A stretch of 64,000 nt of DNA from Gallionellaceae bacterium (GTDB taxonomy: Bacteria > Pseudomonadota > Gammaproteobacteria > Burkholderiales > Gallionellaceae). The notes below the pieces were generated by a model, which made no database searches, had not been told where the DNA came from, and worked only from the letters and a program-made list of their open reading frames with translations. Positions 31,394-56,107 of the stretch are shown piece by piece; within the stretch, counting starts at the first letter, position 1; each line of letters starts with the position of its first letter. The translations under genes and the position numbers were made by a program. The stretch lies in contig DAIDMQ010000011.1 of the NCBI GenBank assembly GCA_027448945.1, positions 1-64,000 on the forward strand, in the 5' to 3' direction.

Positions 31394-31466
31394 AAATTTT
31401 AGTTATTGAAGCGAGATACTCAAGTAATCTGGTGGAAAGTAAACTGAAATTTCTTTGGAGAATAGT

Positions 31467-32558: not shown

Positions 32559-32572
32559 ATCAGCATCAGAAC

Positions 32573-33502
32573 ATGAGCAAGATGCATATTTTATTGACAG
32601 GCGGCGGTGGCATGGTCGGGCAGAACCTGCTCGAACATCCCGCTATCGGCGAATTCGAAGTGCTTGCGCCGAGCAGACCCGAGCTGAACCTGCAAGATTT
32701 CGATGCAGTACAAGCCTATCTGCGTAAGCACAAGCCGGACATGGTCATCCATGCGGCCGGCAAAGTGGGTGGCATTCAGGCCAACATGCGCGAACCAGTT
32801 GGTTTCCTGCTGGACAACCTCGACATGGGGCGCAACATCGTGTGGGCATCGCGTCAGGCGGGTATCAAGCGCCTGCTCAATCTGGGCAGCTCCTGCATGT
32901 ACCCGCGCAACCACAACGAACCCTTGTGCGAAGAACTCGTGCTCAAGGGCGAACTGGAGCCGACCAACGAAGGATATGCCCTAGCCAAAGTGGTCACGGC
33001 GCGCTTGTGCGAATACATCACGCGCGAAGATGCAAGCTATCAATACAAGACGCTCATCCCCTGCAATCTGTACGGGCGGCATGACAAATTTGACCCAGTA
33101 CATTCGCATCTGATTCCGGCGATCATTCACAAGATTAACCAAGCCAAACAGGCCGGACAAACTGAGGTTGAAATATGGGGTGATGGTATGGCACGTAGGG
33201 AATTCATGTATGCCGGTGACTTGGCAGATGCCTTGGTTCGAGCCATCAATGAGTTCGATACACTACCAGCATTGATGAATGTCGGTTTGGGATATGACTA
33301 CACCATCAATGAGTACTACCAAGCCGCAGCCGATGAGATGGGATATACGGGTATATTCGTCCATAATTTGTCCAAGCCCGTCGGTATGGCGCGCAAGTTA
33401 GTTAGCACGGAGCGGCAGCAATTATGGGGCTGGCAGGCAAAGAGTACGCTGCGCGAAGGTATAGCAAAAACTTACGAGTATTATTTGAAAGAGAGTCAGT
33501 AA
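32573..33502 (+). CDS. colC: GDP-L-colitose synthase / GDP-L-fucose synthase family reductase-epimerase
   Basis: A 309-residue SDR protein of the WcaG/Fcl family: ILLTGGGGMVGQNLLEHP, HAAGKVGGIQANMREP, LGSSCMYPRNHNEP and Tyr-x-x-x-Lys in LEPTNEGYALAKVVTA, WGDGMARREFMYAGDLADAL. Fcl performs C3/C5 epimerisation and C4 reduction; ColC performs C5 epimerisation and C4 reduction on the 3-deoxy intermediate. The start ATG 32573 gives the normal length. Because a ColD-type gene follows with TAATG overlap, I read it as colC; GDP-fucose synthase remains possible, and both could be made. Confidence 0.75.
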   Translation: MSKMHILLTGGGGMVGQNLLEHPAIGEFEVLAPSRPELNLQDFDAVQAYLRKHKPDMVIHAAGKVGGIQANMREPVGFLLDNLDMGRNIVWASRQAGIKRLLNLGSSCMYPRNHNEPLCEELVLKGELEPTNEGYALAKVVTARLCEYITREDASYQYKTLIPCNLYGRHDKFDPVHSHLIPAIIHKINQAKQAGQTEVEIWGDGMARREFMYAGDLADALVRAINEFDTLPALMNVGLGYDYTINEYYQAAADEMGYTGIFVHNLSKPVGMARKLVSTERQQLWGWQAKSTLREGIAKTYEYYLKESQ

Positions 33503-34668
33503 TGAGTTTCAACTTTCCATTAGCAACTGCGTCCTGGGGTCAAGAAGAGATTGACGCGATGCAGCGTGTCATCGCATCTGGCATGTTTACCATGGGTGCC
33601 AATGTGCGGGCCTTCGAGCAAGACTTCGCGGCTTATATTGGTAGTCAGCATTGCGTGATGGTTAACTCGGGTTCATCAGCCAACCTGTTGATGGTGGCTG
33701 CGCTGTTCTACACCCAGAATTCGAAGTTGAAACTGAAGCGTGGCGATGAAGTTATCGTGCCCGCCGTGTCGTGGAGTACAACTTACTATCCACTTTATCA
33801 GTACGGATTGAAGATTAAGTTTGTCGATATTGACGTTGAGACGCTCAATTACGATCTGGATCAATTGGAAAAAGCGGTAACCGACAACACTAGGGCAATA
33901 ATGGCAGTAAACTTGTTGGGGAATCCCAATGATTTTGATCGTATCAGCCAAATCATCGATGGGCGAGATATCCTGTTGATGGAAGATAACTGCGAGTCCA
34001 TGGGGGCAAAACTCAAGGGCAAGATGGCCGGAACATTTGGTGTGATGGGTAGCTTTAGTACCTTCTTCAGTCACCATATTTCCACCATGGAAGGCGGCAT
34101 GATCGTCACAGACGATGAGGAGCTGTACCAGATACTCTTGTCGCTGCGTGCGCATGGCTGGACTCGTAATCTGCCAAAACACAATCTGGTATGCGGAGAG
34201 AAGAGTGACGACCCCTTTGAAGAGTCTTTCCGGTTCGTACTTCCAGGCTACAACGTCCGTCCGCTTGAGATTGAAGGTGCGTTGGGCATTGAGCAAGTGA
34301 AACGCTTGCCGATGTTGATCGAAGAGCGACGCAAGAATGGCAAAATGTTGCAAGCGGTGTTGGCTAATCATCCCGACATCATCATTCAACAAGAGATTGG
34401 CGAGAGCAGCTGGTTCGGCTTCAGCTTGGTCATCCGGCCTGGCAGCAAATTGACCCGCAAGGCGCTGCTGGTGAAGCTGAACGAGTTGGGTTTCGAGTGC
34501 CGTCCCATCGTGGCAGGCAACTTCGCCAAGAACGAGGTGGTGAAATATTTCGATTCAGAAGTGTTTGGCGCGCTGAAGAACGCGGAGCACATAGACCAGA
34601 ACGGTTTATTCGTCGGCAACCACCACTACCCGATACCCGATGCATTTGCGGCACTTGCGAAATTGTAA
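33502..34668 (+). CDS. colD: GDP-4-keto-6-deoxy-D-mannose 3-dehydratase (ColD-like)
   Basis: A 388-residue protein of the DegT/DnrJ/EryC1 fold. At residues 190-199 it reads [10 protein letters not shown]: the PLP-binding Lys of aminotransferases is replaced by His (191/192), the mark of the PMP-dependent 3-dehydratases ColD and RfbH. The overall sequence ([74 protein letters not shown]) looks like ColD of colitose-making enterobacteria. It lacks the Cys cluster of RfbH (E1), so the CDP route to 3,6-dideoxyhexoses is unlikely. ATG 33502 overlaps the previous stop. Confidence 0.83.
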
Positions 34669-34678
34669 GGAGATGAAG

Positions 34679-35452
34679 ATGAAGGCGGTCATTCTGGCGG
34701 GTGGATTGGGTACACGGATCAGCGAGGAAACTTCCACGCGTCCGAAACCGATGATCGAGATCGGCGGGCGTCCGATACTCTGGCATATCATGAAGGTCTA
34801 CTCGGCTCACGGCATTAACGACTTCGTGGTTTGCTGCGGCTACAAGGGCTACGTCATCAAGGAGTACTTCGCCAACTATTTTCTGCACATGTCCGACGTA
34901 ACTTTCGACATGCAGAACAACAAAATGGAAGTACATCAGCGCAATGCCGAGCCGTGGCGAGTCACATTGGTCGATACCGGCGACAATACCTTGACCGGCG
35001 GCCGCCTGAAGCGAGTGGCGGACTATGTTAAGGATGAACCTGAATTCTGCTTCACATATGGCGACGGGGTCGCGGACATCGATATCGGTGCCCTGGTCGC
35101 ATTTCACAAGCAGCACGGCAAGCGGGCCACCGTTACCGCAGTTCAACCGCCAGGCCGTTACGGTGCGCTGAAGATGGATGGCAAGTCGGTGCGCGGCTTC
35201 ATCGAAAAACCGCAGGGCGATGGTGGCTGGATTAACGGGGGCTTCTTCGTGTTATCGCCGGAATGCATCGGTTTGATAGCCAATGACAGCACATCGTGGG
35301 AAGGCGAGCCGCTTAGCAAACTGGCCTTGCAGGGTGAACTGATGGCTTACGAGCATAACGGCTTCTGGCAGCCGATGGACACCCTGCGCGACAAGAATCA
35401 ACTGGAAGAGCTGTGGCAAAGCGACAAAGCGCCGTGGAAGGTGTGGAAGTGA
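34679..35452 (+). CDS. rfbF: Glucose-1-phosphate cytidylyltransferase
   Basis: A 257-residue nucleotidyltransferase that makes CDP-glucose. [20 protein letters not shown], then [18 protein letters not shown], is the exact family signature; [13 protein letters not shown] carries the Mg Asp, [19 protein letters not shown] and [11 protein letters not shown] follow. ATG at 34679 has AAGGAG seven bases upstream; the ATG six bases earlier is too close. Its stop overlaps the GTG of rfbG by 4 bases. First gene of the CDP-sugar operon. Confidence 0.95.
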
Positions 35453-36510
35453 GCCCAGATTTCTGGCGCGGCAAGCGCGTCTTCCTGACCGGGCACACAG
35501 GCTTCAAGGGTGGCTGGCTTTCGCTGTGGCTGCAGTCCATGGGTGCCGAAGTGTATGGCTATGCACTCAATCCGCCGACCGATCCCGACATGTTTTCGGT
35601 GGCGAAAGTCGCCGAGGGGATGGTGGCCAGTGAGATTGCGGATATCCGTGATGCCGACAGTTTGCGCTCAGCGATGCAGGCTGCCCGTCCGGAGATTGTG
35701 TTCCATCTTGCCGCTCAGCCCCTGGTGCGCTACTCCTATTTGCAGCCTGTGGAGACTTATGCCGTCAACGTAATGGGTACCGTATACCTGCTGGAAGCGG
35801 TGCGTGCGACACACGGCGTGAAAGCAATCGTGAACGTGACAACGGACAAATGCTACGAGAACCGTGAGTGGGTCTGGGGTTATCGCGAGAACGAGGCGAT
35901 GGGGGGATTCGACCCCTATTCCAGTAGCAAAGGTTGTGCTGAACTGGTGACCTCGGCCTACCGCCAATCTTTTCTGGAGCCGGCAGGGATCGCATTAGCG
36001 AGCGCGCGCGCCGGCAACGTCATCGGCGGCGGAGATTGGGCAGCAGACCGTTTGATACCAGATTTCCTCAGAGCCATGGATGCCGGCACCATGCTGAATA
36101 TCCGCTCCCCGAATTCGACGCGCCCCTGGCAACATGTGCTGGAGCCGCTGTCCGGCTATCTGACGCTGGCGCAGCGCCTGTATGCCGAAGGCAACCGGTA
36201 TGCCGAAGGGTGGAATTTCGGGCCGGGCGATGAAGATGCGCGTTCGGTTGGATGGATCATCGAGCAATTGGCGGCGATGCGTCCGGACATAAAGTGGCAA
36301 TGTGACCAAGCTCCGCAGCCACATGAGGCGAATTTTCTCAAGCTCGACAGCAGCAAGGCAAAAAACAGGCTGGATTGGCAAACACGCTGGGATCTGCGTA
36401 TGGCTCTGCGGCAGACCCTGACATGGCATAAAGCTTGGCGGGACGGCGAAGATATGCGTGCAGTCACACTGGCGCAAATCGTCGAATATCAAAAAACGGG
36501 TAAGAGCTAA
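35449..36510 (+). CDS. rfbG: CDP-glucose 4,6-dehydratase
   Basis: A 353-residue extended SDR that makes CDP-4-keto-6-deoxy-D-glucose. NAD motif [18 protein letters not shown] (the specific T-G-H-T-G-F-K-G-x-W), [30 protein letters not shown] and Tyr-x-x-x-Lys in [17 protein letters not shown] at 35449 starts the protein within the rfbF stop (GTGA). No gene for the iron-sulphur 3-dehydrase of the usual 3,6-dideoxyhexose route follows; instead an epimerase and a C-methyltransferase come next. Confidence 0.94.
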
Positions 36511-40399: not shown

Positions 40400-41914
40400 A
40401 TGTCGCTGAAGAAGAACGTAGTCGCCAATTTCCTCGGGCAGGGCTGGACCGCCCTGATGGGGCTTGCCTTCATCCCTGTGTATATTGGCTACATGGGGAT
40501 AGAAGCGTGGGGTCTGGTCGGGTTCATGAGCATGTTGCAGGCCTGGCTCACACTTCTCGACATGGGACTCACCCCTACCCTGAGCCGCGAAATGACGCGG
40601 TTCCAGGCGGGAGCCGGCAGCACTCAATCCATGCGTGATCTGCTGCGTTCTCTGGAAGTCATTTACGGGTGCATAGCTGTGACAGTGATGGGCCTGATAT
40701 GGTTGGCCTCCCCGTGGATAGCCGCGAACTGGCTGAGTGCAAGCCAACTGTCGGGCCAGTCCATGGCGCAGGCGATCGCGATAATGGGCCTGGTACTGGC
40801 GGCGCGGATGGTCGAACAGATCTATCGCGGAGCGATCCACGGCTTGCAGCAGCAGGTCTGGCTGAACGGGGCGCAAAGCATATTGGCCACGCTTCGCTGG
40901 GCAGGGGTGATCTGCGTACTGGCCTGGATATCGCCCAGTGTGGAGGCGTTCTTCTTGTGGCAGGGATTCGTTTCCGTGCTGTCGGTTTTCGTTCTGTCGC
41001 GCAAGACATACAGCTGCCTGCCACCAGCCGCGCGCAGGGCACGCTTCGACATCGATGCGGTCATGGGCATTCGCAGTTTTGCCGGAGGGATCGCGGCGAC
41101 CACATTTCTTGCGCTGCTGCTGACCCAGGTGGACAAGCTGCTGCTGAGCAAGCTTGTCACGCTGGAAGAGTTCGGCTATTACACCCTGGCGGGGACGGTG
41201 GCCAGCGTTCTGTATTTCTTTACTTCTCCCATGGTTACTGCAGTTGCGCCACGGTTGACAGAGTTGGTCACAAGATCGGAACCAGCGGCGCTGGTCGACA
41301 CTTATCAGCGCGCAAGTCAGGTATTGGCCGCCGTCCTGGTTCCTGCGGCACTGGTGATCGCGGCGTATGCAGAGCCCCTGCTCTATGCCTGGTCGGGGGA
41401 TCCCGCTCTTTCGCGGCAGGTGGCACCGCTGCTGGTTTTGCTGAGTCTGGGTACCTTGTGCAATTGCTTCATGCACATCCCGTACATGCTTCAACTTGCG
41501 CACGGCTGGACGGGTTTTGCGCTGCGCATGAACATCGTGGCAGTCGCCTTCATCGTCCCTGCGGTCTGGCTGGTGGTACCGAGCTACGGGGCGATCGGCG
41601 CGGCATGGGTGTGGCTGATTCTGAATGCGGGCTATGTGTTGATTGGTATCCACTTCATGCACCGCCGTCTCCTTCACGGGGAGAAATGGCGCTGGTATCT
41701 CGAGGCCATCTTCAAGCCGCTGTCCGTTGCGGCGGTTGCCGTGCTTGCGCTCCGGCGGCTGGTTGACCTGCCGCATGATCGCGTGTGGATGGCTTTGGTG
41801 CTGGCGATGATCCTGACCGTCGTGATGGTCGCGGTGCTCTGGAGCGTACCCGCATCGCGAAAATTCATCCAACACCAACTCAAGTCGCTACAGGGGAAAG
41901 AGAGCAATGTCTGA
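40400..41914 (+). CDS. wzx: Wzx-type polysaccharide flippase
   Basis: A 504-residue MOP-superfamily membrane protein with about 12-14 helices. It starts KKNVVANFLGQGWTALMGLAF and contains the LDMGLTPTLSREMTRF segment common in O-unit translocases. It would move the undecaprenyl-linked repeat unit across the inner membrane. GC-rich like the CDP-sugar operon before it. It overlaps the next GT2 gene by 8 bases. A second MOP-type protein is fused to another domain further downstream. Confidence 0.87.
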   Translation: MSLKKNVVANFLGQGWTALMGLAFIPVYIGYMGIEAWGLVGFMSMLQAWLTLLDMGLTPTLSREMTRFQAGAGSTQSMRDLLRSLEVIYGCIAVTVMGLIWLASPWIAANWLSASQLSGQSMAQAIAIMGLVLAARMVEQIYRGAIHGLQQQVWLNGAQSILATLRWAGVICVLAWISPSVEAFFLWQGFVSVLSVFVLSRKTYSCLPPAARRARFDIDAVMGIRSFAGGIAATTFLALLLTQVDKLLLSKLVTLEEFGYYTLAGTVASVLYFFTSPMVTAVAPRLTELVTRSEPAALVDTYQRASQVLAAVLVPAALVIAAYAEPLLYAWSGDPALSRQVAPLLVLLSLGTLCNCFMHIPYMLQLAHGWTGFALRMNIVAVAFIVPAVWLVVPSYGAIGAAWVWLILNAGYVLIGIHFMHRRLLHGEKWRWYLEAIFKPLSVAAVAVLALRRLVDLPHDRVWMALVLAMILTVVMVAVLWSVPASRKFIQHQLKSLQGKESNV

Positions 41915-43764: not shown

Positions 43765-44717
43765 GTGGTTGCGTGTCAGTTGAAGGTGGAGGTGTAACCA
43801 CTCTGGTTATCGGCGGGGCTGGGTATATTGGTTCGTACTTAGTACCCAAATTGCTTGACACTGATCGGCGCGTTACAGTAATTGGGCGGAGAAGTAGCCC
43901 TCTGTACGAAGTGCCACTAGGCGCGAGTTACATACAAGGGGATTACGTACACCGAGAATTTCTTTGTGGATTGTTGGATAAACATCAAGAAGTAATTCTT
44001 CTGGCGTATTCGTCGGTACCCAATACTTCATTTGAGGATCCCCTGAGTGATCTTCTGCAGAATCTTCCGCCTGCTGTGCAATTATTTGAAGAGATGGCCA
44101 AGCGGAAAATGAAGCTGGTATTAGTGTCATCAGGTGGAACAATATACGGGGAAGCACAGGTGCTACCCATTACCGAAGAACATCAAACTAAGCCCATTTC
44201 ACCATATGGTGTGACGAAGTTGACTCTTGAGCACTATGCCCATCTTTATTCAATAACCCATGGCTTGAAGTATGTATGTGTTCGACCGTCGAATGCCTAC
44301 GGAGTAGGGCAACGTCCATTTGCGGGGCAAGGATTTATTTCAACAGCAATGGCACATGCAATGCGTGGAGAGTCGGTACGTGTATTTGGTGAGCATGGCG
44401 TAATCCGTGACTACCTATACGTTAGCGATCTAGCTGCGGGCATTACAAGTGCACTGTTGTTTGGCGGATTAGGAGCGACCTACAATTTAGGCTCAGGCAA
44501 GGGCGTATCCACTCGTGAAGTGTTAGATGCGATGGCGCCATTGATGCGAGAAATTGGCTATACCTTGAGAGTCGAACATTTGCCTTGGCGTCCCTTTGAT
44601 GTGAAGGCGAATATTTTGGACGCATCAAAGTTAACGGCCGATACAGATTGGATGCCAGTTGTGAAATTTAATGATGGTTTGCGAATGATGCGTGATTGGC
44701 TAAAGGGTTTGGAGTGA
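43761..44717 (+). CDS. NDP-sugar epimerase/dehydratase (extended SDR)
   Basis: A 318-residue extended SDR. Rossmann motif LVIGGAGYIGSYLVPKLLD, LVSSGGTIYGEAQVLPIT with Ser, Tyr-x-x-x-Lys in ISPYGVTKLTLEHYA, then RPSNAYGVGQRP and VIRDYLYVSDLA. It resembles UDP-glucose 4-epimerase-like proteins such as Gne or WbpP, but the exact substrate is not clear. It is coupled to the GT11 gene (ATGA). Base composition is AT-richer than the preceding module. Confidence 0.8.
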   Translation: MSGCVSVEGGGVTTLVIGGAGYIGSYLVPKLLDTDRRVTVIGRRSSPLYEVPLGASYIQGDYVHREFLCGLLDKHQEVILLAYSSVPNTSFEDPLSDLLQNLPPAVQLFEEMAKRKMKLVLVSSGGTIYGEAQVLPITEEHQTKPISPYGVTKLTLEHYAHLYSITHGLKYVCVRPSNAYGVGQRPFAGQGFISTAMAHAMRGESVRVFGEHGVIRDYLYVSDLAAGITSALLFGGLGATYNLGSGKGVSTREVLDAMAPLMREIGYTLRVEHLPWRPFDVKANILDASKLTADTDWMPVVKFNDGLRMMRDWLKGLE

Positions 44718-44722
44718 GCGAA

Positions 44723-45598
44723 ATGAAGCTAACCAGCAGCCCGCTCGCACGAAGTGCGGAGCTTACAGTTGCAATGCCAATCTACAATGCGGGTAGATTT
44801 TTGCGTGCGGCAGTTATGTCCATCGTCAAGCAAACATATACAGACTGGAAACTAATCATCATAGACGATGGCTCAACGGATAGTGCATTAGAAACAATAT
44901 CGGATATCAATGATTCAAGAATCGTTGTTTATCAGGATGGGTTTAATAAAGGATTGGCTGTCAGGTTGAATGAGGCTATTGATATCGCGGACGGAAAATA
45001 TTTTGCGCGTATGGATCAGGATGATATTTCATATCCTGAAAGGTTCATGAAGCAAATCCAGGCATTTAAATCAAATCCTCAACTGGACCTAGTGGCTACG
45101 CGCGCTGTGACAATATCTGAAGACGACCAGCTATTGGGCACACGTCCATACGCATTGACACATGAAGAAATTTGCAGCGCTCCTTGGCGCAGCTTTTATT
45201 TGCCGCATCCAACTTGGATGGGGAAATTAGAATGGTTTCGTAAGTATCGCTATGCAGAACCCGCACCATATTTTTGTGAGGATCAGGAGTTATTGTTGCG
45301 AACTTACACACAAAGTACTTTTGCAACTTTAAACGAAATTTTGTTTGCTTACCGAGTCAGAGATGCTGTCAATTGGGTAAAACAAAAGCGAACAAGAGTT
45401 GCCGTATTGAAAATGCAAATACACCGATTCTACGAAAGGAAGCAAGCCTTCTTTGCTCTGCTCGCAGTGTTGGTTTGCGTGGGCAGAATGATGGATGACT
45501 GGCTTCAAAGTAAGAGCTGGTCTTTAGGAAGACAATATGCCAATCAGGCAGTTCGTGCACGATGGGATGAAGTAATGAAAGATCTGCATGCTCGCTAA
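44723..45598 (+). CDS. Glycosyltransferase family 2
   Basis: A 291-residue GT-A transferase. LTVAMPIYNAGRFLRAAVMS, LIIIDDGSTDSALETI and the metal motif ARMDQDDISYPERF (D-Q-D) are clear. ATG at 44723 has GGAG eight bases upstream; GTG at 44714 (overlapping the previous stop) is an alternative start. The C-terminal third is basic and helical. Donor unknown. Confidence 0.87.
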   Translation: MKLTSSPLARSAELTVAMPIYNAGRFLRAAVMSIVKQTYTDWKLIIIDDGSTDSALETISDINDSRIVVYQDGFNKGLAVRLNEAIDIADGKYFARMDQDDISYPERFMKQIQAFKSNPQLDLVATRAVTISEDDQLLGTRPYALTHEEICSAPWRSFYLPHPTWMGKLEWFRKYRYAEPAPYFCEDQELLLRTYTQSTFATLNEILFAYRVRDAVNWVKQKRTRVAVLKMQIHRFYERKQAFFALLAVLVCVGRMMDDWLQSKSWSLGRQYANQAVRARWDEVMKDLHAR

Positions 45599-45642: not shown

Positions 45643-48564
45643 ATGCTAGATAAGATGAACACAGATGAGCTTGATTCAACGTGGAGGCGTGGTCGGTCCA
45701 TCCCGATAGCCTTTCTACTCTGGGTAATCTATTTCTGCTACGCGATTTGTGCTGCCTTGGTATTTCAAAAGGTACTGGTTCCACTCGTCCCATCATTGCA
45801 CGCGATTGGTGGATTGGTGGGTGATGATGCCATCTATTTTGATTCTGTAGCGGTCAAGATGGCAGAGCAAATAAATTTGAACGGATGGGGAGGTTGGCAG
45901 CTTTATCCCGCACAAGGGGCTGCGGGGAATGTGGGGATATTGGCAGCGCTATATGCCATCTTTGGCCATGATCCCACCCTGATCCTTCCTGTTAATGCAT
46001 CTATTCATGCATTGGGTGGAGTGCTTATTTTTCTGCTTGCACGCGAGCTTGCCAACAAAGACTCTGTCGGTGTGTTGGCGGGGATTATTGCGGGCAGCTT
46101 GTTTGTACTTTTTCCTTCATCATTGAATTGGTATGGTCAGTTGCATAAAGACGGCTATGCAATAGCGGGATTCTTGTTGATTTTGTTGGTATGGATAAAG
46201 GCCTTGTGTAGGTCTGGCAACGAAGTGGTTTGGGTCAAGTTGTTTCTTGCTCATCTTGCCGGCGTGGTGCTGATTGCTTTGGTAAGACCATACAATTTGA
46301 AGTTGATGTTGGTCGCTTATTTGGTAGGTTGGGTGTTGTGGACCTTCATCGCAATATTGCGCCGTCGAGCTGGGTTTGATTTGAAATTCAATACCTTTTT
46401 GATCGTATCGGCAGCCGTGTGTATAGGCGGGATAGGCGCGGCGGGCTATTTGGGTGCGGATAGCAATAGCGAACAAGCTTATGCGAGCTTTAATGGAACT
46501 GGAAAACCGTGGAAATGGCAGGATACCCCGTGGGTTCCAGATAAAGTTGAGCATTACGTAGAGCTTGCAGCCCAGACTAGGGGATATTTGATCGATTATG
46601 GTATCAGTCAAAATGCCAAATCAATGATAGATGTCGATGTAAAGCCACAGAGCATTGTGGAGGTTGTGGGCTATTTGCCACGTGCTTTGCAGATATCGCT
46701 TTTTGCACCATTGCCAAATACATGGTTTCAGAGTCTCAGTTTAATGCGACTAACAGCGGTTGCAGAGACGCTAATCTTCTATATTTGTTTTGTGGGGCTA
46801 CTCCTGCTTTTTCTATACGAACGCAAACCCGCGACATGGGTAACCCTATATTTTGCTACCTTCATGATGACAGTCGTTGGTTTTACGATTGCCAATATGG
46901 GAACGCTGTACAGAATACGATATGCATACCAGTTTGTATTTTTGATGCTGGGCGTACTGGGATGGATAACTTGGCTTGACCAGTCGGGACGATTGCAGAG
47001 ATTTAAGCAGTGGTTAAATCTATCGACTATTAGTGCTTCTGCGGCAGCCAAAGAAAATAATTCCATCCGACGTAAGGAGGTGCTTGGCAGTGGCGTGATT
47101 GTGATGGCATTGACCTTGTTTTGTTTCGTCGGATTTTTTGTCCGCGACATTATGATGGCTCATACATTTGGCTTGGGTGCATCGCTGGATAATTTCTTTA
47201 TTGCATTGCTGATTCCGATGTTTGTGGTTACGGTCTTGGGTTTGCCTCTAGGTGCTGTCTTTGTCCCAACTTACTTGGAGAAAAGAGAGAGAGATTCAGA
47301 GGCATCAGCCAAAACATTCGTCACTAGCACTACAACATGGATAAGCATGGCTTTATTCATAGTCTGTATCGCACTTTATTTGACAGGTCCGGCATTATTT
47401 CCGTTACTGGGACTTAAGTCGGCAAACCAAAATTTAACTGAACTTACAAAACTTTTTGATCTGGCTTTGCCAATACTGCTTTTCAGCGGATTAGTGATTA
47501 TGGGCAATGCTGTTCTCAATGCTAAAGGTCGCGCCGTATTGACGAGTTCCGCTCAGTTGGTCGTTCCGGTTTCAGCGATTGTTGCATTGGTGTTTTTCGG
47601 GAAAGAGTACGGCATCAAATCGGTTATGTATGGCATGGTTGTAGGACAGCTGCTCAATCTGGCGGTGATTCAATACTACCTAAAGCGGCAACAGGTGTCT
47701 CTTTGGCCAGCGGGGCGCTATTTGAATGCAAAGAAATGGTTGAGTGATGGAGGGAGTTCACTATTGGCCCAGTATGTGCCATTGATTGTGTCGGCATTTT
47801 TTATCAGTGCTGCTGCACCAGTGGCAACGGTGCTTGCAATGTCATTACCTGAAGGTGCCGTTTCTGCCTTTAACTTGGGAAACAAAGTGGTGCTATTTGT
47901 TACAAGCTTGGTGGGCACCGCAGTTTCTACTGTGATGTTGCCGTATTTCTCCGCAATGGTGAGTAAAAACAACATCATCTCGGCGAGACGAGAGCTCTCG
48001 CTCTTCTTGTTATTTGCCACATTTATAACGATACCCTGCAGTGCAATAATTTATTTCTGGGCTGCTCCCATCGTTCATTACATCTTTGAGGGGGGGGTAA
48101 TGGGTGGAGATGCGGTGTCAGAAGTTACCCGCGTGATGCAATTCTCTATTGTGCAGCTTCCCTTCTTTGTTTGTAACGCCTTGTTGTTAAAGTTTGCGAC
48201 AGCGACAAAACATGTACTAGCAATCAGTGTGGTAGCTTTTGTGGGTATGGTCGTCAGCATAATTGCCAGCATGATATTGATGAGGCATATGGGGGTTGCT
48301 GGGATAGCACTTGGGATGACCGTTTCAATGCTGCTATCGACTATATTGCTGGTGCTCGTTCTTGTCAGGTATGGGCATATAACGGGATTGGATGCACTGG
48401 TAATGTTATTAAACTGGTTCTTATACATTACCCTGTTGATCTGTATACATTATGCAAGTACGCCCAGTATCGTTGTTTCACTCATGGCATATGCAACTCT
48501 GTTGGTTGGATATGCCAACATGCTGTTAAATGAGAGGCGCTTGGGTATAAGGGACCTTAGGTGA
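45643..48564 (+). CDS. Fusion of a GT-C/Wzy-like membrane domain with a MurJ-like flippase
   Basis: A continuous 973-residue membrane protein. Residues about 1-455 form a polytopic domain with an acidic first-loop motif DDAIYFD (61-67), NWYGQLHKDGY (162-172) and NMGTLYRIRYAY (419-430), resembling GT-C transferases or polysaccharide polymerases. After a polar linker (about 455-480) residues 483-973 are a MurJ/MviN-like MOP flippase: FVGFFVRDIMMAHTFGLG, LDNFF, LPLGAVFVPTYLEKRE. ATG at 45643 (or 45655) lacks a clear binding site. No internal stop or frameshift is seen. The combination would put glycan assembly or polymerisation and flipping in one chain; this is inference. Confidence 0.8.
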   Translation: MLDKMNTDELDSTWRRGRSIPIAFLLWVIYFCYAICAALVFQKVLVPLVPSLHAIGGLVGDDAIYFDSVAVKMAEQINLNGWGGWQLYPAQGAAGNVGILAALYAIFGHDPTLILPVNASIHALGGVLIFLLARELANKDSVGVLAGIIAGSLFVLFPSSLNWYGQLHKDGYAIAGFLLILLVWIKALCRSGNEVVWVKLFLAHLAGVVLIALVRPYNLKLMLVAYLVGWVLWTFIAILRRRAGFDLKFNTFLIVSAAVCIGGIGAAGYLGADSNSEQAYASFNGTGKPWKWQDTPWVPDKVEHYVELAAQTRGYLIDYGISQNAKSMIDVDVKPQSIVEVVGYLPRALQISLFAPLPNTWFQSLSLMRLTAVAETLIFYICFVGLLLLFLYERKPATWVTLYFATFMMTVVGFTIANMGTLYRIRYAYQFVFLMLGVLGWITWLDQSGRLQRFKQWLNLSTISASAAAKENNSIRRKEVLGSGVIVMALTLFCFVGFFVRDIMMAHTFGLGASLDNFFIALLIPMFVVTVLGLPLGAVFVPTYLEKRERDSEASAKTFVTSTTTWISMALFIVCIALYLTGPALFPLLGLKSANQNLTELTKLFDLALPILLFSGLVIMGNAVLNAKGRAVLTSSAQLVVPVSAIVALVFFGKEYGIKSVMYGMVVGQLLNLAVIQYYLKRQQVSLWPAGRYLNAKKWLSDGGSSLLAQYVPLIVSAFFISAAAPVATVLAMSLPEGAVSAFNLGNKVVLFVTSLVGTAVSTVMLPYFSAMVSKNNIISARRELSLFLLFATFITIPCSAIIYFWAAPIVHYIFEGGVMGGDAVSEVTRVMQFSIVQLPFFVCNALLLKFATATKHVLAISVVAFVGMVVSIIASMILMRHMGVAGIALGMTVSMLLSTILLVLVLVRYGHITGLDALVMLLNWFLYITLLICIHYASTPSIVVSLMAYATLLVGYANMLLNERRLGIRDLR

Positions 48565-49688
48565 AAGAGAAAATTTGCATCGTTGTATCTAGCCCTATGA
48601 CGGTTAATGCTTTCCTGCAGCAACCCATCCTTGGCTTATGTGAGCAATATGAGGTCTACGTTGTGTCAAATATAAGTCATCAAGGTGAGTTAAACGAACT
48701 TGGGGACGCGGTAGTGTCAATACCGATTGCGATAGAGCGGAAAGTAAAACCATGGCGCGACCTCGTTGCGCTTTGGCAATTGCTTGCGTTATTCAGGCGT
48801 TATCGATTTAAGTCAGTGCATTCCGTTACTCCCAAGGCGGGACTGCTTGCCATGATCGCCGCATATTTTGCGGGTGTCGAGATTCGTATACATACCTATA
48901 CTGGGCAGGTGTGGGTCACGCGTATGGGGCTATCCCGATTCTTATTGAAATTTTTGGATAAAATGATCGCCAAATTCGGCACATATGCGCTGGTTGACAG
49001 TTATTCGCAGCGACAGTTTCTGATTGCTGAAAGCGTATTGGATGAAGCCAAGTCGGGCGTGTTGGCGATGGGATCGATTTCGGGCGTGGATGTGGTTAGA
49101 TTTTCTCCCAATGAAGCTGCAAGAAATCGTATTCGTGCCGAATTGGGGGTGGCGGATGATGAGGTGTTGTTGTTGTTTTTGGGTCGGTTGAATCGTGACA
49201 AGGGTGTGTTGGATTTGGCCGCTGCCTTTGCGGGCATGTGCGCTAATCATCCGCATTTGCTGATTGTAGGGCCCGATGAAGAGCAGATGACGCAACAGAT
49301 AGAATCGCTAACTACGGGTTGTAGGGAATACGTACATTTTGTAGGCCACACGTCTCGGCCCGAAGAATATATGGCCGCATCGGATGTGCTTTGTTTGCCC
49401 AGTTACCGGGAAGGGTTTGGGAGTGTGGTTATCGAAGCTGCGGCAGTCGGTATTCCTGCCATAGCTTCAAGGATCTACGGCCTGACAGACGCGGTAAAGG
49501 AAGATGAGACAGGCTTGCTGTTCGAGGCCAAAGATGTTGTTGGTTTGCGTGCTGCTATGGAACGATTGGTTATCGACATTGCGTTCAGAACTGAGTTGGG
49601 AAGGCGCGCACAAGAGAGGGCAAGACGCGAGTTCTCCGGCCAAAAGTTGACCGATGCTTGGCTTGCGTTCTACAAGGCAAGAGTATGA
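48561..49688 (+). CDS. Glycosyltransferase family 4
   Basis: A 375-residue GT-B transferase. The donor-binding half has LLFLGRLNRDKGVLDLAAAF and the E-x7-E motif in YREGFGSVVIEAAAVGIPAI; the N-terminal half has KSVHSVTPKAGLLAMIAA, common in WbpH/PglA-like and O-antigen transferases. GTG at 48561 overlaps the stop of the fusion gene (GTGA). It overlaps pglC by 4 bases, so it likely adds the second sugar to the PglC product, as PglA does in Campylobacter. Confidence 0.9.
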   Translation: MKEKICIVVSSPMTVNAFLQQPILGLCEQYEVYVVSNISHQGELNELGDAVVSIPIAIERKVKPWRDLVALWQLLALFRRYRFKSVHSVTPKAGLLAMIAAYFAGVEIRIHTYTGQVWVTRMGLSRFLLKFLDKMIAKFGTYALVDSYSQRQFLIAESVLDEAKSGVLAMGSISGVDVVRFSPNEAARNRIRAELGVADDEVLLLFLGRLNRDKGVLDLAAAFAGMCANHPHLLIVGPDEEQMTQQIESLTTGCREYVHFVGHTSRPEEYMAASDVLCLPSYREGFGSVVIEAAAVGIPAIASRIYGLTDAVKEDETGLLFEAKDVVGLRAAMERLVIDIAFRTELGRRAQERARREFSGQKLTDAWLAFYKARV

Positions 49689-50293
49689 AGCGCCTATTTG
49701 ATGTTCTGGTAGCCCTGTTGATGCTGTTAATGCTGTGGCCGGTAATCGTGCTTGTGGCAATCCTAGTGAGGATAAATCTGGGTGCACCGGTGTTATTCAA
49801 GCAACAGAGGCCGGGATTCAATGGCAAACCTTTTTACATATACAAATTTCGAACCATGCTGCTTACGCTCGATGGGGAGGGAGTGTTACTGCCCGATAGT
49901 GAGCGCATGACGCGTTTAGGTACGACCTTGCGCAAGCTGAGTTTGGATGAACTCCCACAGTTGTTCAATGTACTTAAAGGTGAACTCAGTTTGGTGGGGC
50001 CGCGCCCCTTACTGATGGAATATCTGCCGCTATATGATGCGACTCAAACACGTCGTCATCTGGTCAGACCGGGAATAACGGGCTGGGCCCAAGTGAATGG
50101 TCGCAATGCGATCAGCTGGGAAGAGAAGTTCAAGTGTGATGTCTGGTATGTCGATCACCAGTCCTTCTGGTTGGACATGAAGATATTGTGGCTTACCGTC
50201 AGAAAAGTGATTCATTCAGAGGGTGTCAGCCAGACTGATCACGTGACGATGGAGAAATTTCGCGGCAGTGGTCGGGGGAGCGATGGTGCCTAA
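49685..50293 (+). CDS. pglC: Initiating phosphoglycosyl transferase, PglC type
   Basis: A 202-residue monotopic enzyme that moves a sugar-1-phosphate from UDP-sugar to undecaprenyl phosphate. It has an N-terminal re-entrant helix (MKRLFDVLVALLMLLMLWPV), FKQQRPGFNGKPFYIYKFRT, the catalytic Asp-Glu in SLDELPQLFNVLKGE, VGPRPL and RPGITGWAQVNGRNAI. It is the short PglC/WcaJ-core form with no extra membrane domain. With pglD and pglE next to it, UDP-diNAc-bacillosamine or a related amino sugar is the likely substrate. Confidence 0.9.
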   Translation: MKRLFDVLVALLMLLMLWPVIVLVAILVRINLGAPVLFKQQRPGFNGKPFYIYKFRTMLLTLDGEGVLLPDSERMTRLGTTLRKLSLDELPQLFNVLKGELSLVGPRPLLMEYLPLYDATQTRRHLVRPGITGWAQVNGRNAISWEEKFKCDVWYVDHQSFWLDMKILWLTVRKVIHSEGVSQTDHVTMEKFRGSGRGSDGA

Positions 50294-50951
50294 TGAGATG
50301 AACAAGCCCGCCAGGGCGCTATTGATGTTCGGTGCAAGTGGCCACTCTAAGGTCATTATTGATCTGGTTGAGAAGGGCAGTGAGTACTGCATTAAATGGT
50401 TGGCGGATGATAACCCCGAGCTCAAGGCAACAAACGTCTATGGCTACAAAGTGCTGGGCGGGAAAGATGAGTTACAGCATGTTGTGAGGATTTTTAAGGG
50501 TGCTTTGGCAGTTGTGGCAATTGGCAGTAATCGGGCACGCGCTAATGTGGCGGACTCGTTGGTTGCCCAAGGTTGGGAGTTGACCCCCGCACTCATACAT
50601 CCTTCCGCACAGATTGCACGTGGTGTGACCCTCGATGCAGGGACGGTCGTCATGGCAGGTGTAGTTATCAATTCGGACTCACATATCGGTCGTAACGTTA
50701 TCGTGAATACGGGCGCGAGCGTGGATCATGATTGTGAGATCGGTGATGCTGTGCACATTGCCCCTCACGCAACTCTATGCGGTGGCATCACCGTGGGGGC
50801 GGGTAGCCTGATAGGGGCCGGCGCGGTTATTTGCCCTAATCTGAATATAGGAAGCAATGTCACTGTGGGAGCGGGTGCTACAGTGATAAACAATGTGGCG
50901 GACAATTCAATTGTGGCGGGTACGCCCGCAAGGTTAATAGGAAAAGCATGA
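50283..50951 (+). CDS. pglD: PglD-like sugar N-acetyltransferase
   Basis: A 222-residue enzyme with an N-terminal Rossmann-like domain (ALLMFGASGHSKVIIDLVE) and a left-handed beta-helix (from IHPSAQIARGVTLDAGTVV). The catalytic His is in GASVDHDCEIGDAVHIAP. PglD acetylates the 4-amino group of UDP-4-amino sugars. ATG at 50283 has GGGGGAG before it and overlaps pglC by 11 bases. Together with PglE and PglF it completes a bacillosamine-type pathway. Confidence 0.9.
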   Translation: MVPNEMNKPARALLMFGASGHSKVIIDLVEKGSEYCIKWLADDNPELKATNVYGYKVLGGKDELQHVVRIFKGALAVVAIGSNRARANVADSLVAQGWELTPALIHPSAQIARGVTLDAGTVVMAGVVINSDSHIGRNVIVNTGASVDHDCEIGDAVHIAPHATLCGGITVGAGSLIGAGAVICPNLNIGSNVTVGAGATVINNVADNSIVAGTPARLIGKA

Positions 50952-52156
50952 AGAATCGAAATCAATCACCCAACATGACCGATCTGCTATTTTCAAAATG
51001 GCCGACTTATGACGAGGATGAAATCGAAGCGGTCAATGAAGTATTGCGCTCTGGAAAGGTGAATTACTGGACCGGAGAGCAGGCGCGACTCTTCGAGCAG
51101 GAATATGCCGCATATGTGGGTACTCGACATGGTATTGCATTGGCAAATGGTACTGTTGCGCTAGAGTTGGCCTTATATGCGCTGGGAATTGGCGCGGGTG
51201 ATGAGGTAATCACCACCAGTAGGACATTCATCGCTTCAGCGAGTGCGGCAGTGATGCGCGGTGCGATTCCGGTCATCGCAGATGTGGATCCCGTTAGTCA
51301 AAATATCACTCTGGCAGAGATCGAGCGGCTAGTAAGTCCACGTACCAAGGCCATTATTCCTGTTCATCTGGCTGGCTGGCCATGCGAGATGGATAAAATT
51401 ATGGAGTATGCCAATGCCAAAGGCATCAAAGTGATTGAAGATTGCGCACAAGCCCATGGTGCAAAGTATATGGGCAAACCTGTCGGTTCTTTTGGGCATG
51501 CCGCAGCATTCTCATTTTGCCAAGATAAGATCATTTCCACAGGTGGCGAAGGTGGGATGCTGGTAATCAATGACGAAGATGCGTGGCAGAAGGCATGGGC
51601 TTATAAGGACCACGGGAAAAGTTATGACGCTGTTTATAATCGAATGCACCCCCCGGGCTTCCGCTGGATACACGATTCGTTCGGAACAAATTGGCGGATT
51701 ACCGAGATGCAGTCCGCAATCGGTAGATTGCAACTGCAAAAGCTAGATAATTGGATCCGCGCTAGGCGCAAGAATGCCGCCTTGTTGCTGGCAGGATTGG
51801 CAAACACACAAGGACTGCGCCTTACTGTGCCTCCCTCAGAGATTGAACATGCTTATTACAAATTCTATGTATTCGTTAGGCCTGAAGAGTTGAATGAAGA
51901 TTGGAGCCGTGATCGCATCATGCAAGAGATCAATGCTGCCGGTGTGCCTTGTTTCAGCGGTTCGTGCAGTGAGATATATTTGGAAAAAGCCTTTGCTACA
52001 TGCGCCTCGCGACCAGCACATCGCTTGTCTGTAGCGCAAAATTTAGGTGAAACCAGCCTGATGTTTTTGGTGCACCACACCTTAAGCGTATTAGCGATGG
52101 AAAAGACTATTTCAACTATCAATGCAGTGATGGCTTCTGCAACTCGTAAGCAGTGA
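50948..52156 (+). CDS. pglE: PglE-like PLP-dependent sugar 4-aminotransferase
   Basis: A 402-residue DegT/DnrJ/EryC1/StrS enzyme. Unlike the ColD-like protein it keeps the PLP Lys (Lys194 in SFCQDKIISTGGEGG). It has LRSGKVNYWTGEQ and NGTVALELALYALGIG at the N-terminus and DSFGTNWRITEMQSAIG. It would add an amino group to a UDP-4-keto-6-deoxy-GlcNAc made by the PglF-like dehydratase. ATG overlaps pglD by 4 bases. It converges on waaC with 34 bases between. Confidence 0.88.
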   Translation: MKNRNQSPNMTDLLFSKWPTYDEDEIEAVNEVLRSGKVNYWTGEQARLFEQEYAAYVGTRHGIALANGTVALELALYALGIGAGDEVITTSRTFIASASAAVMRGAIPVIADVDPVSQNITLAEIERLVSPRTKAIIPVHLAGWPCEMDKIMEYANAKGIKVIEDCAQAHGAKYMGKPVGSFGHAAAFSFCQDKIISTGGEGGMLVINDEDAWQKAWAYKDHGKSYDAVYNRMHPPGFRWIHDSFGTNWRITEMQSAIGRLQLQKLDNWIRARRKNAALLLAGLANTQGLRLTVPPSEIEHAYYKFYVFVRPEELNEDWSRDRIMQEINAAGVPCFSGSCSEIYLEKAFATCASRPAHRLSVAQNLGETSLMFLVHHTLSVLAMEKTISTINAVMASATRKQ

Positions 52157-53171: not shown

Positions 53172-53201
53172 TTGGGAGTCGTAAAAGGGTTACATTTTAA
53201 T
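53172..53201 (+). promoter_or_regulatory. Possible promoter for the MraY-like gene
   Basis: ttggga (53172-53177) and tttaat (53196-53201) are spaced by 18 bases in the divergent region between waaC and the MraY-like gene. The -10 matches five of six consensus bases. Confidence 0.35.
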
Positions 53202-53285
53202 GGAAGTGATGCTGCGATAGGAAGCGTCTCAATACAGGCAGTAGCAAATGATAGAATGCCGCACCCACATTTTCGCAAGCAAAAT

Positions 53286-54260
53286 ATGTCACATTACCCA
53301 CCCATGATTTCGGCCTTAGTTACCTTGTTGTTGACGCTATTTTTGTCGCTGAACAAGGACGGTACGATACAAGACATCACTGTAGAAAATGCACCAGATA
53401 CCAAGCCTGTCCCCAACGTGGGCGGGGTAGGTATTTTGGTGGGTGTGTTGGCAGGGTGGTCCATGCTGTTGCATGAATTGAATCTCTGGGTAGTACTCCC
53501 TATGTCAGCTTTGTTCGCCGTGTCTCTGATGGGTGATATGAAGGGATTAGCTCCAAAGAAAAAACTGATCGCGCAGTTCATTGCGGCAATATTGATGATA
53601 TTGGGTACGGGCCTAGCATGGTACTGGTGGTTGCCGGTGTTGCTGTTCATCGTGTGGATGACTAATCTGTATACCTTAATGGACGGCGCTGATGGCTTGG
53701 CGGGCGGTATGGCGATGTTTGGTTTTACCATGTATGGCTTTGCAGCATTGAGAAGCGGTGCAGTAGCGGGCGAGGCCTTCGCAATGACTTGCTTTACAGC
53801 CGGAGCGGCAGCGATGGCCTTCTTGTACTACAACTTCCATCCTGCCAAAGTATTGATGGGTGAGGCGGGCTCTATTCCTTTGGGCTTTCTTTCGGCAACT
53901 CTGGGTGTGCTGGGATGGTCGCAGGGATATTGGCCCTTTTGGTTCCCGGTGTTGGTATTCTCCCCCTTCATCATAGATGCTACCGCTACGCTGCTAATGC
54001 ACATGCGTCGGGGAGCGTCGCCCCAACAGCGATCGAGCGGGCATTATTATCAGCGTTTATTAGAAAGTGGATGGAGTCACCAAAGTACGGTGATACTAGA
54101 ATACATCCTGATGTTTTTTTCTGGCGCTTCAGCCATATGGGGTCTAAGTCAGGACAGTGCCATGCAAGGCAATCTGCTGGCCTCATGGGGAGCGGTCTAT
54201 ATCGCGCTGTCAATGTGGGTAGATAAACGCTGGCGCAATCATCAACAAGAAAGCCGATAG
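53286..54260 (+). CDS. MraY/WecA-family polyprenyl phosphate sugar-1-phosphate transferase
   Basis: A 324-residue multi-span membrane enzyme of the Glycos_transf_4 family, which transfers GlcNAc-, FucNAc- or QuiNAc-1-phosphate to undecaprenyl phosphate. Motifs: PVPNVGGVGILVG, LMGDMKGLAPKKKLIAQF, the catalytic NLYTLMDGADGLAGG and the cytoplasmic loop KVLMGEAGSIPLGFL. I chose ATG at 53286 (MSHYPPMISALVTLLL); the upstream in-frame stretch from 53172 lacks membrane character. It precedes the PglF/WbpM-like gene by two bases, like wbpL-wbpM of Pseudomonas. Confidence 0.87.
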   Translation: MSHYPPMISALVTLLLTLFLSLNKDGTIQDITVENAPDTKPVPNVGGVGILVGVLAGWSMLLHELNLWVVLPMSALFAVSLMGDMKGLAPKKKLIAQFIAAILMILGTGLAWYWWLPVLLFIVWMTNLYTLMDGADGLAGGMAMFGFTMYGFAALRSGAVAGEAFAMTCFTAGAAAMAFLYYNFHPAKVLMGEAGSIPLGFLSATLGVLGWSQGYWPFWFPVLVFSPFIIDATATLLMHMRRGASPQQRSSGHYYQRLLESGWSHQSTVILEYILMFFSGASAIWGLSQDSAMQGNLLASWGAVYIALSMWVDKRWRNHQQESR

Positions 54261-54262
54261 TT

Positions 54263-56107
54263 ATGTTGCGAAAATCAAATAGTCGTACTTTGTTGGCGAT
54301 GTCGCATGATCTCGTTGCAACGATATTGGCTTGGGGTATGGCCTATATTTTGCGATTTAACTTTGAGTTGCCGCAGGAATATCTGGCTGAACTGAAGCAC
54401 ACCGTAATCTGGGTGGTGATATTGCAGCTAACGGTGTTCTGGAGATTCGGTCTTTATAGGGGTATCTGGCGTTATGCCAGCTTGCACGATCTTCGTCGTA
54501 TCGTGCTGGCGGTGTTGTTGGCCGCAGCTTGTGTGCCATTCACATTTTGGATGTTCCGTACAAGTGTGGTCGTTCCACGCTCAGTCTTGGTATTAGATCC
54601 CATCTTACTGGTCATGCTTATGGGTGGTAGCAGGTTGTTCTATAGGTATTGGAAAGAAACTCGCGGACGATCTAAGTTCAAATTGGCAGCTGAACCCGTG
54701 TTGGTGTTGGGTGCGGGTGATGCAGCAGTAAGCTTATCAAAAGATCTAAGCAAGAATCCCGCATGGCAATTGGTGGGATTTCTGGATGACGACGCCAATA
54801 AGAAAAATTTTATCTTGAACGGCATCAAGGTAATGGGTGATTTGGAAAGTTTGGATTACTGGGTCAAGCACTACAGCATCGAGAAGGTCATTATTGCGAT
54901 GCCTTCCAGTTCACATCAGCAACGTCAGCGCGCGATAAAAATTTGTCAGGCCGCAGGTGTGCAGGCGTTGACCGTCCCTTCTTTCGACGATTTGATGAGC
55001 GGCAAGGTGGGTGTTTCGCAATTGCGCGCAATCGAGTTGGATGATTTGTTGGGGCGCGATCCAGTCAGTTTGGATAAAACCGGTTTGCAAGAACTATTGG
55101 CTGGCAAGGTTGCGATGGTGACAGGTGCAGGCGGTTCCATAGGCTCAGAATTGTGCAGACAGATTGCTATCTTTGACCCAGCAACATTGGTGTTGTTTGA
55201 ACAGAGTGAGTTCGCTTTGTATACGCTTGAACAGGAAATCAGGCAGACCTTTCCAGGACTGAATTTCGTTTGCATCATAGGTGATGTGCGAGATGCCGCG
55301 CGTGTCGCGGAGGTGTTGCATATCTACAGTCCTTCCGTAGTGTTCCACGCTGCTGCTTACAAGCATGTGCCTATGATGGAACAGAACAACACTTGGCAGG
55401 CGATACGTAACAATGTGCTGGGTACATGGACAGTGGCGCATGCGGCACAACGCCAAGGAGTCGCCAAGTTCGTATTGATCTCGACCGATAAGGCAGTCAA
55501 TCCAACTAACGTCATGGGGGCTTCCAAGCGACTTGCCGAGCTGGTGTGTCAGGCACTACAACCATCAGGCGGTACTCGTTTCGTGATGGTACGTTTCGGC
55601 AACGTGCTCGGTAGTACAGGGAGTGTGATTCCAAAATTTCGTGCTCAGATCGCGGCAGGTGGGCCCATCACCGTGACTCATCCAGAAATCACACGTTATT
55701 TCATGTCTATACCAGAAGCTGCGCAACTGGTTTTACAAGCAGGTTTGATGGGGCAGGGCGGCGAGATATTCGTGTTGGATATGGGGGAACCCGTCAAGAT
55801 AGTTGATTTGGCAAAAGAGCTGATACGACTCTCTGGCATGGGCGAAGAGGATATCAAGATTGAATTCAGCGGCCTACGTCCTGGTGAGAAGTTGTACGAA
55901 GAGCTCTTGGCCGACGATGAGCAGACGTTACCTACCCCGCATCCTAAGCTTCGTATCGCACAAGCGAATCAGGCAGATGCAGCATGGTTGACGCGTCTGT
56001 TGGAATGGACGGCGGCGACTTCCAAGCCCGATGTTGAGGTGCGTGAAGACTTAACTGGCTGGGTACCCGAGTATCAACCCTATTCCGAGGGCAAGGCCGG
56101 CAAATGA
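54263..56107 (+). CDS. Membrane UDP-sugar 4,6-dehydratase, PglF/WbpM/CapD family
   Basis: A 614-residue protein with four N-terminal membrane helices (about residues 10-120), a first Rossmann domain (PVLVLGAGDAAVSLSKDLS) and the catalytic SDR domain (MVTGAGGSIGSELCRQIAIF). The active site is STDKAVNPTNVMGASKRLAE, with Asp-Lys in place of the Tyr-x-x-x-Tyr Tyr seen in true epimerases, as in WbpM. It makes UDP-4-keto-6-deoxy-GlcNAc. It can serve both the PglE/PglD route (bacillosamine) and the FucNAc/QuiNAc route of the MraY-like transferase. Overlaps the ligase gene by 4 bases. Confidence 0.92.
   Translation: MLRKSNSRTLLAMSHDLVATILAWGMAYILRFNFELPQEYLAELKHTVIWVVILQLTVFWRFGLYRGIWRYASLHDLRRIVLAVLLAAACVPFTFWMFRTSVVVPRSVLVLDPILLVMLMGGSRLFYRYWKETRGRSKFKLAAEPVLVLGAGDAAVSLSKDLSKNPAWQLVGFLDDDANKKNFILNGIKVMGDLESLDYWVKHYSIEKVIIAMPSSSHQQRQRAIKICQAAGVQALTVPSFDDLMSGKVGVSQLRAIELDDLLGRDPVSLDKTGLQELLAGKVAMVTGAGGSIGSELCRQIAIFDPATLVLFEQSEFALYTLEQEIRQTFPGLNFVCIIGDVRDAARVAEVLHIYSPSVVFHAAAYKHVPMMEQNNTWQAIRNNVLGTWTVAHAAQRQGVAKFVLISTDKAVNPTNVMGASKRLAELVCQALQPSGGTRFVMVRFGNVLGSTGSVIPKFRAQIAAGGPITVTHPEITRYFMSIPEAAQLVLQAGLMGQGGEIFVLDMGEPVKIVDLAKELIRLSGMGEEDIKIEFSGLRPGEKLYEELLADDEQTLPTPHPKLRIAQANQADAAWLTRLLEWTAATSKPDVEVREDLTGWVPEYQPYSEGKAGK

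Follow-up and report, generated by a model that had tools for sequence, protein, structure and literature searches.

A Single Frame Joins a Predicted GT-C-Type Domain to a MurJ-Like Flippase Domain

The window analyzed here is a 64,000-nucleotide stretch of the forward strand of a Gallionellaceae bacterium genome (assembly GCA_027448945.1, contig DAIDMQ010000011.1). One of its genes encodes two membrane domains in a single chain: an N-terminal half predicted to resemble GT-C glycosyltransferases (GTs) and a C-terminal half of the MurJ family of flippases (Table 1). The frame runs on the + strand from an ATG at 45643 to a stop at 48562 through 48564, 973 codons without interruption, as a first-pass annotation of the DNA had stated; its end overlaps the next gene, encoding a GT4 glycosyltransferase, and the longest frame listed on the reverse strand across 45643 through 48564 has 163 residues. 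The same architecture was found in 16 distinct loci, each with both halves in one frame uninterrupted by a stop or frameshift; these come from a peptide-pattern scan of genome contigs, the window itself, and the order-level genomes G064, G288, and G111. Because the fusion recurs with identical architecture in independent assemblies, an assembly join or chance is ruled out, and the presence of the two halves in one chain is confirmed.

An internal translation start at the junction was considered and rejected: a Shine-Dalgarno-like AAGGAGGT occurs at this point in the window, but it is not conserved, and AGGAG, GGAGG, or GAGGT is absent from the 105 junction bases in 11 of the 12 other fusions (L039 has one). 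The polar linker expected at about residues 455 through 480 was recovered as a segment of low model confidence (460 through 473) with variable sequence across 13 fusions.

The N-Terminal Half Resembles GT-C Enzymes in Its Predicted Fold

Modeled alone, residues 1 through 470 form a separate domain (predicted local distance difference test [pLDDT], 80.3; predicted template modeling score [pTM], 0.83) with ∼10 transmembrane (TM) helices, as read from the helices of the model; the half is thus polytopic, as proposed, and TM1 and TM7 are each followed by a long loop. Its landmarks are TM1, a loop (49 through 110) that carries D62, D170 at the start of TM4, a long loop (270 through 366) that is itself rich in K and R, and R424 and R426 before TM10. 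Charge counts in the short loops fit a cytoplasmic location of both ends, as the MurJ half requires. Searched against the PDB with Foldseek, the model gave 177 matches at E ≤ 10, and the first eight rows were all GT-C enzymes (PglB, ArnT, and AglB twice each, ALG3, and Pmt) with probabilities of 0.95 to 1.00, PglB standing first at 1.00. The best E-value, 0.0067 with a TM-score of 0.47, is weak; transporter rows come after the GT-C rows, at probabilities of ≤0.14 among the 50 of 177 matches listed. The likeness to GT-C enzymes suggested by the first-pass annotation is supported, at weak E-values. The possibility that the N-terminal half is a portion of the flippase fold was rejected on the predicted models and the Foldseek matches.

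No Pfam or NCBIfam family exceeds its cut-off in the N-terminal half. The nearest approach on the window's copy is DUF6541 (PF20176), at 26.5 bits below its gathering score of 29; this family matches 9 of 15 N-terminal halves at E ≤ 1 (best 1.5e-6), and no mention of it was found in the open-license literature. PF02516 (STT3) has no match in G000 and is absent from the 10 families that the 15 halves match at E ≤ 1. A sequence search of solved structures returned four matches, none credible (best E, 0.21).

Conservation was counted over 23 distinct N-terminal halves, four of them stand-alone outgroups. Identity of N-terminal halves to the window's ranges from 36 to 56%. D62, Q166, W292, R313, S327, W361, R424, and R426 are invariant (23/23); D170 (one E), K169 (one R), and R347 are each kept in 22. 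Both motifs singled out at first, DDAIYFD and HKDGY, are present, and they are conserved only in part: D62 is invariant and K169 and D170 nearly so, while D61 is found in 2 of 23. The conserved residues are predicted to lie on or near the periplasmic side, and D62 and D170 may correspond to the two acidic sites of GT-C enzymes. Judged by the usual position of loops in GT-C(A) enzymes, the long loop after TM1 with its conserved acid is a GT-C(A)-like trait; the name follows PMC11127046 and PMC10920833. At locus L022, positions 2004 through 3107 encode a polytopic protein of 368 residues without a Pfam match, in which the stretch FPSTLIWTSVLGKEA resembles the N-half motif FPSxLNWYGQxHKDG; positions 3073 through 5322 hold a 750-codon frame resembling two tandem GT4 enzymes, beside a stand-alone N-terminal half.

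The Flippase Half Differs from Housekeeping MurJ

The prediction of a full MurJ-like half was upheld. Pfam MurJ (PF03023) matches residues 505 through 952 (E = 1.1e-48; 166.4 bits against a cut-off of 27.4) and the C-terminal stretch alone at 1.2e-49, and the best Foldseek matches of the full-length model (pLDDT, 78.8; pTM, 0.76) are MurJ structures at 1.8e-13. The NCBIfam MurJ model, TIGR01695, scores the fusion at 169 bits, under its cut-off of 235.55. In a tree of the flippase halves, confined to linked copies and housekeeping MurJ, the 19 copies linked to an N-terminal half separate from 12 housekeeping MurJ proteins with support of 100/100.

R18, R24, R52, R270, and D39 are essential in Escherichia coli MurJ; in Burkholderia cenocepacia R52 and D39 are dispensable (PMC4790310). 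Neither R18 nor R52 occurs in any of the 19 linked copies; R24-D25 is kept in all, D39 in 16, and K takes the place of R270 in all. A separate MurJ of 408 to 504 bits is encoded in 16/16 genomes checked, and the linked copy scores 74 to 170 bits in 14 of them (none in G054 and G313); the same search finds a match in 12 of 14 control genomes. In the window's genome (2.45 Mb, 42 contigs) the normal MurJ lies on another contig. Since every genome checked has a normal MurJ and two arginines essential in E. coli MurJ are lost in all 19 copies, we conclude from sequence comparison that the flippase half is a paralog and not the cell's lipid II flippase. The separate MurJ, the split in the tree, and the lost residues led us to reject a housekeeping MurJ with an added domain. 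The earlier suggestion of a substrate other than lipid II gains support from the same lost residues and separate MurJ copies, and from the gene context.

Gene Neighborhood

Five genes that follow the fusion in the window recur with it as a cassette: GT4, PglC-like, PglD-like, PglE-like, and CapD-like. With the window as reference, the cassette was counted in 16 MurJ-linked loci with enough flanking sequence; all five genes lie near the protein in 12, and within 5 kb in 11 (the window's CapD-like gene is 5.7 kb away). Of the lipid-charging enzymes, only the PglC-like one is shared by all 12. Gallionella STC_7 has four of the five genes within its 6.5 kb flank, and G114 has GT4, PglC, and CapD nearby and a PglE-like gene 6 kb away but lacks PglD. 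L038, L046, and L049, left out of the count for their short downstream flanks, agree as far as they reach (GT4 and PglC, part of GT4, and PglC, respectively). The cassette is probably an initiation module for an undecaprenyl diphosphate (Und-PP)-linked sugar of the bacillosamine type; the "Pgl" names and the type are what we infer, because the aminotransferase, the dehydratase, and the sugar transferase score below their family cut-offs.

The wider cluster holds the separate Wzx noted at the outset, identified by its PF01943 match, and two different initiating transferases, PglC-like and WecA-like, so it may make two lipid-linked glycans. Between 28599 and 36510 the window carries GDP-mannose/GDP-fucose genes and then CDP-dideoxyhexose-type genes (RfbF-, RfbG-, and RfbH-like on reading their sequences); five genes from 31455 to 36510 are 81 to 95% identical to a Sideroxyarcus cluster, and the gene at 28599 is 46% identical.

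Table 1. Features of the fused gene and of its surroundings in the window
Feature	Coordinates	Strand	Basis
Fused GT-C/MurJ-like membrane protein, 973 aa	45643..48564	+	Open frame; same fusion in 16 distinct loci including the window
N-terminal GT-C-type domain (predicted), ∼residues 1-459	45643..47019	+	Model, Foldseek, conservation in 23 rows
Linker, residues 460-476, predicted cytoplasmic, variable	47020..47070	+	Low pLDDT at 460-473; charge count; 13 fusions
MurJ-family (MOP superfamily) flippase domain, residues 477-973	47071..48561	+	PF03023, Foldseek, tree
GT2 glycosyltransferase just upstream	44696..45598	+	PF00535 2e-26; GT2 in same place in Gallionella STC_7
GT4 glycosyltransferase, overlapping the fusion end	48561..49688	+	PF00534 2.4e-33; conserved neighbor
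PglC-like initiating phosphoglycosyl transferase	49658..50293	+	TIGR03025 2.1e-78, 264.5 bits, cut-off 295.55 not reached; conserved
NeuD/PglB/VioB-family sugar acetyltransferase (PglD-like)	50268..50951	+	TIGR03570 219 bits, cut-off 160.8
Nucleotide-sugar aminotransferase (PglE/PseC-like)	50948..52156	+	TIGR03588 1.4e-67, below cut-off
CapD/PglF-like 4,6-dehydratase	54263..56107	+	TIGR03589 1.8e-53, below cut-off
Separate Wzx-type flippase, same cluster	40400..41914	+	PF01943 2.8e-15
WecA-like enzyme	53172..54260
Two Wzy_C proteins	56104 and 61042

Distribution and History of the Fusion

The scan of genome contigs, which relied on two short peptide patterns and therefore overlooks relatives, gave 16 loci with the N-terminal half. 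Apparent duplicates (L040 of L041, L045 of L046, L003/L024 of L037), recognized by their having the same match values and frame coordinates, were counted once. L040/L041 (Pseudorhodoplanes/Bacteroidia) and L045/L046 (Gammaproteobacteria/Rhodocyclaceae) are apparently the same sequences under unrelated organism names, so some labels of metagenome-assembled genomes are probably wrong. Carriers of the fusion include an isolate, Neptuniibacter pectenicola.

The distribution is patchy. The fusion occurs in 1 of 36 other genomes of the same genus, several of them incomplete; the carrier is G001, which seems to be the record of Gallionella STC_7 (L037), and its copy is 57% identical and lies beside the same pair of neighbors. 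The N-terminal half matches in 11 of 399 genomes of the order (G000 and G001 among them; two weak) and in 4 of 369 at class level, of which one is the window's own and one weak. Of 45 matching records in a plasmid collection, not one spans 80% of the query, and in the 15 listed the match is confined to the MurJ half.

The halves occur as adjacent genes in three relatives. G114 and G190 keep the order N then C; in Formivibrio citricus (L047, 5532 through 7991) a GT2 domain is fused before the MurJ-like half, and the N-terminal half follows as a separate gene. Two Rhodocyclaceae loci carry an NAD-epimerase domain ahead of the GT-C domain: in L050 (6966 through 10754; 1263 codons) the MurJ-like half follows, and in L051 (2332 through 4791) the contig ends before any C-terminal half, for which reason it was not counted as fused. 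L048 holds at 7905 through 8345 a partial second copy of the fusion N terminus, just upstream of the full gene.

In a midpoint-rooted tree of N-terminal halves the 19 MurJ-linked rows group together (98/92), and the four stand-alone outgroups, several on long branches, fall outside; the nearest named relatives of the window's protein are from Sideroxyarcus and Gallionella. The label "fused" requires three changes on this tree, and the fusion may have had one origin with later splits.

Proposed Function and Its Alternatives

From the fusion, the predicted folds, the conservation, and the gene context, we infer a substrate, a direction, polymerization, and coupling as follows. The neighboring enzymes would make a 4-acetamido-4,6-dideoxy sugar, probably of the bacillosamine type; the PglC-like enzyme would load it onto the undecaprenyl lipid, and the GT4 enzyme and then variable GTs would extend it. 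The MurJ-like half would flip the finished lipid-linked unit, and the GT-C half would take the flipped unit as donor in the periplasm, most likely adding it to a growing chain, that is, filling the slot of Wzy, so that Wzx and Wzy functions would share one chain. To this reading, a single-chain flippase and periplasmic glycosyltransferase for an Und-PP-linked surface glycan whose GT-C half is most likely the polymerase, we assign a probability of about 0.42. The PglC-like type of the conserved lipid-charging enzyme points to an Und-PP-linked glycan as the likeliest cargo, and we consider that part rather probable. We propose only tentatively the specific form in which a MurJ-type flippase hands each repeat unit to a GT-C(A)-type polymerase without its leaving the protein, the polymerase belonging to a class outside the known Wzy families.

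The slot argument draws on the loci themselves. Polytopic frames were listed by a hydropathy rule that may overlook proteins or break them up. The polytopic frames within ∼15 to 20 kb in G799, G800, G801, and G802 showed no Wzx, no Wzy_C, and no other recognized polymerase candidate (Pfam on 6 of the 10 noncassette membrane frames). In the outgroups G630 and G762 a Wzx accompanies the stand-alone N-terminal half, which is itself the sole polymerase candidate within ∼6 to 9 kb. G064 encodes a polytopic protein without a Pfam match 9 kb upstream.

Several observations weigh against the proposed polymerase. None of the 177 Foldseek matches reaches E ≤ 0.001, and profile comparisons of the N-terminal half with seven bacterial STT3-type rows (hhalign; probability 0.4%) and with a PMT_2-like pair (4%) are not significant. 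In G288 the cassette genes have only scattered weak matches nearby, and in G111 they have none. Pfam identifies an additional Wzx in the window, G797, G798, and L048, as does BLAST only in G288; Wzy_C-type proteins, potential ligases or polymerases, are present in the window, G797 (BLAST only), G064, G114, G190, and G798 (17 kb away). The outgroups G054 and G313 have polytopic neighbors lacking a Pfam match, and an ABC exporter ∼13 kb upstream in G799 could flip lipids. No Wzz match was obtained for 7 of 12 genomes, among them that of the window, by a search that finds one in 8 of 14 control genomes. The identity of N-terminal halves to the window's is higher than we would expect for a polymerase with varied acceptors when the account in PMC10920833 is applied.

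The conservation of the N-terminal half and the missing Wzz pull toward en bloc transfer, in which a PglB-like oligosaccharyltransferase or ligase would move the flipped glycan from Und-PP to a protein or other fixed acceptor. PglB is also the best Foldseek match, the module resembles the pgl genes of Campylobacter and Neisseria, and the surrounding GTs vary around the well-conserved half. PglB, however, has a C-terminal periplasmic domain, whereas the N-terminal half has none and runs into the linker; PF02516 matches neither in G000 nor in the 15 halves, the profile comparison with STT3 is not significant, and Wzy_C-type proteins, some of them ligases, already stand beside several loci. With the slot argument favoring a polymerase, we regard en bloc transfer as unlikely.

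We think it similarly improbable that the halves represent two of the three components of a side-chain system, the C-terminal half flipping an undecaprenyl phosphate-linked monosaccharide and the N-terminal half adding the sugar to a finished glycan. A separate MATE-family flippase and GT-C enzyme have been proposed for such a system in Citrobacter, where by the authors' account flippase activity was not shown directly (PMC11127046). ArnT and ALG3 stand close behind PglB in the Foldseek list, PMT_2 matches 1 of 15 N-terminal halves weakly (E = 0.0098), and a side-chain role would account for the extra Wzx seen in five of the clusters. The PglC-like enzyme, however, which is the conserved one for charging the lipid, is of a type that makes Und-PP-sugars, and no polyprenyl-phosphate-sugar synthase was recognized in G799 through G802 (Pfam on 6 of 10 noncassette frames with at least two TM helices). 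That the N-terminal half is a noncatalytic domain guiding substrate or binding a partner for the flippase seems very improbable given that acidic and arginine residues on its predicted periplasmic face are invariant and that it also stands alone, lacking a MurJ-like partner in the whole genomes of G054 and G313 and in the sequence stretch covered for G630 and G762.

Relation to Known Systems

The pieces are of known kinds, and their combination appears to be new: the open-license literature yielded no account of a fusion between a flippase and a glycosyltransferase or polymerase, judged by titles and abstract openings. MurJ domains do occur in multidomain proteins, as in mycobacterial MviN with its cytoplasmic regulatory domains, where the additions are not membrane glycosyltransferases. 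With the lipid II flippase MurJ the C-terminal half shares the Pfam family, the fold, R24-D25, D39 (16/19), and a basic residue at R270; it differs in lacking equivalents of R18 and R52, in scoring below the TIGR01695 cut-off, in forming its own tree group, and in the attached GT-C domain. The N-terminal half shares with PglB of family GT66, ArnT, PMT, and AglB a GT-C fold match at weak E-values and conserved Asp residues following TM1 and close to where TM4 starts, whereas it lacks a Pfam STT3 match and is fused to a flippase. Table 1 of PMC10920833 gives a lipid-PP-oligosaccharide donor for GT66 alone among the GT-CA families.

The locus shares with the Wzx/Wzy pathway its cluster type, a flippase together with one polytopic enzyme whose conserved residues are predicted to be periplasmic; it differs in its MurJ-type rather than Wzx-type flippase, in a GT-C(A)-like enzyme rather than one of the known Wzy families, and in its single chain. 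The three-component side-chain systems, as described in PMC11127046, likewise pair a MATE-family flippase with a GT-C enzyme, but as separate proteins with a polyprenyl-phosphate-sugar synthase, whereas here the two are fused beside a PglC-like module.

A natural fusion that is also found as adjacent separate genes suggests that both halves act together, and thus that flipping and use of a lipid-linked sugar are done by one chain. The hand-over of a flipped lipid-linked sugar to its enzyme would then be a question testable in one protein. If the N-terminal half is a polymerase, a GT-C(A)-like fold would join the polymerases. Because a MurJ relative is here tied to surface-glycan genes, the label "lipid II flippase" on such copies would mislead.

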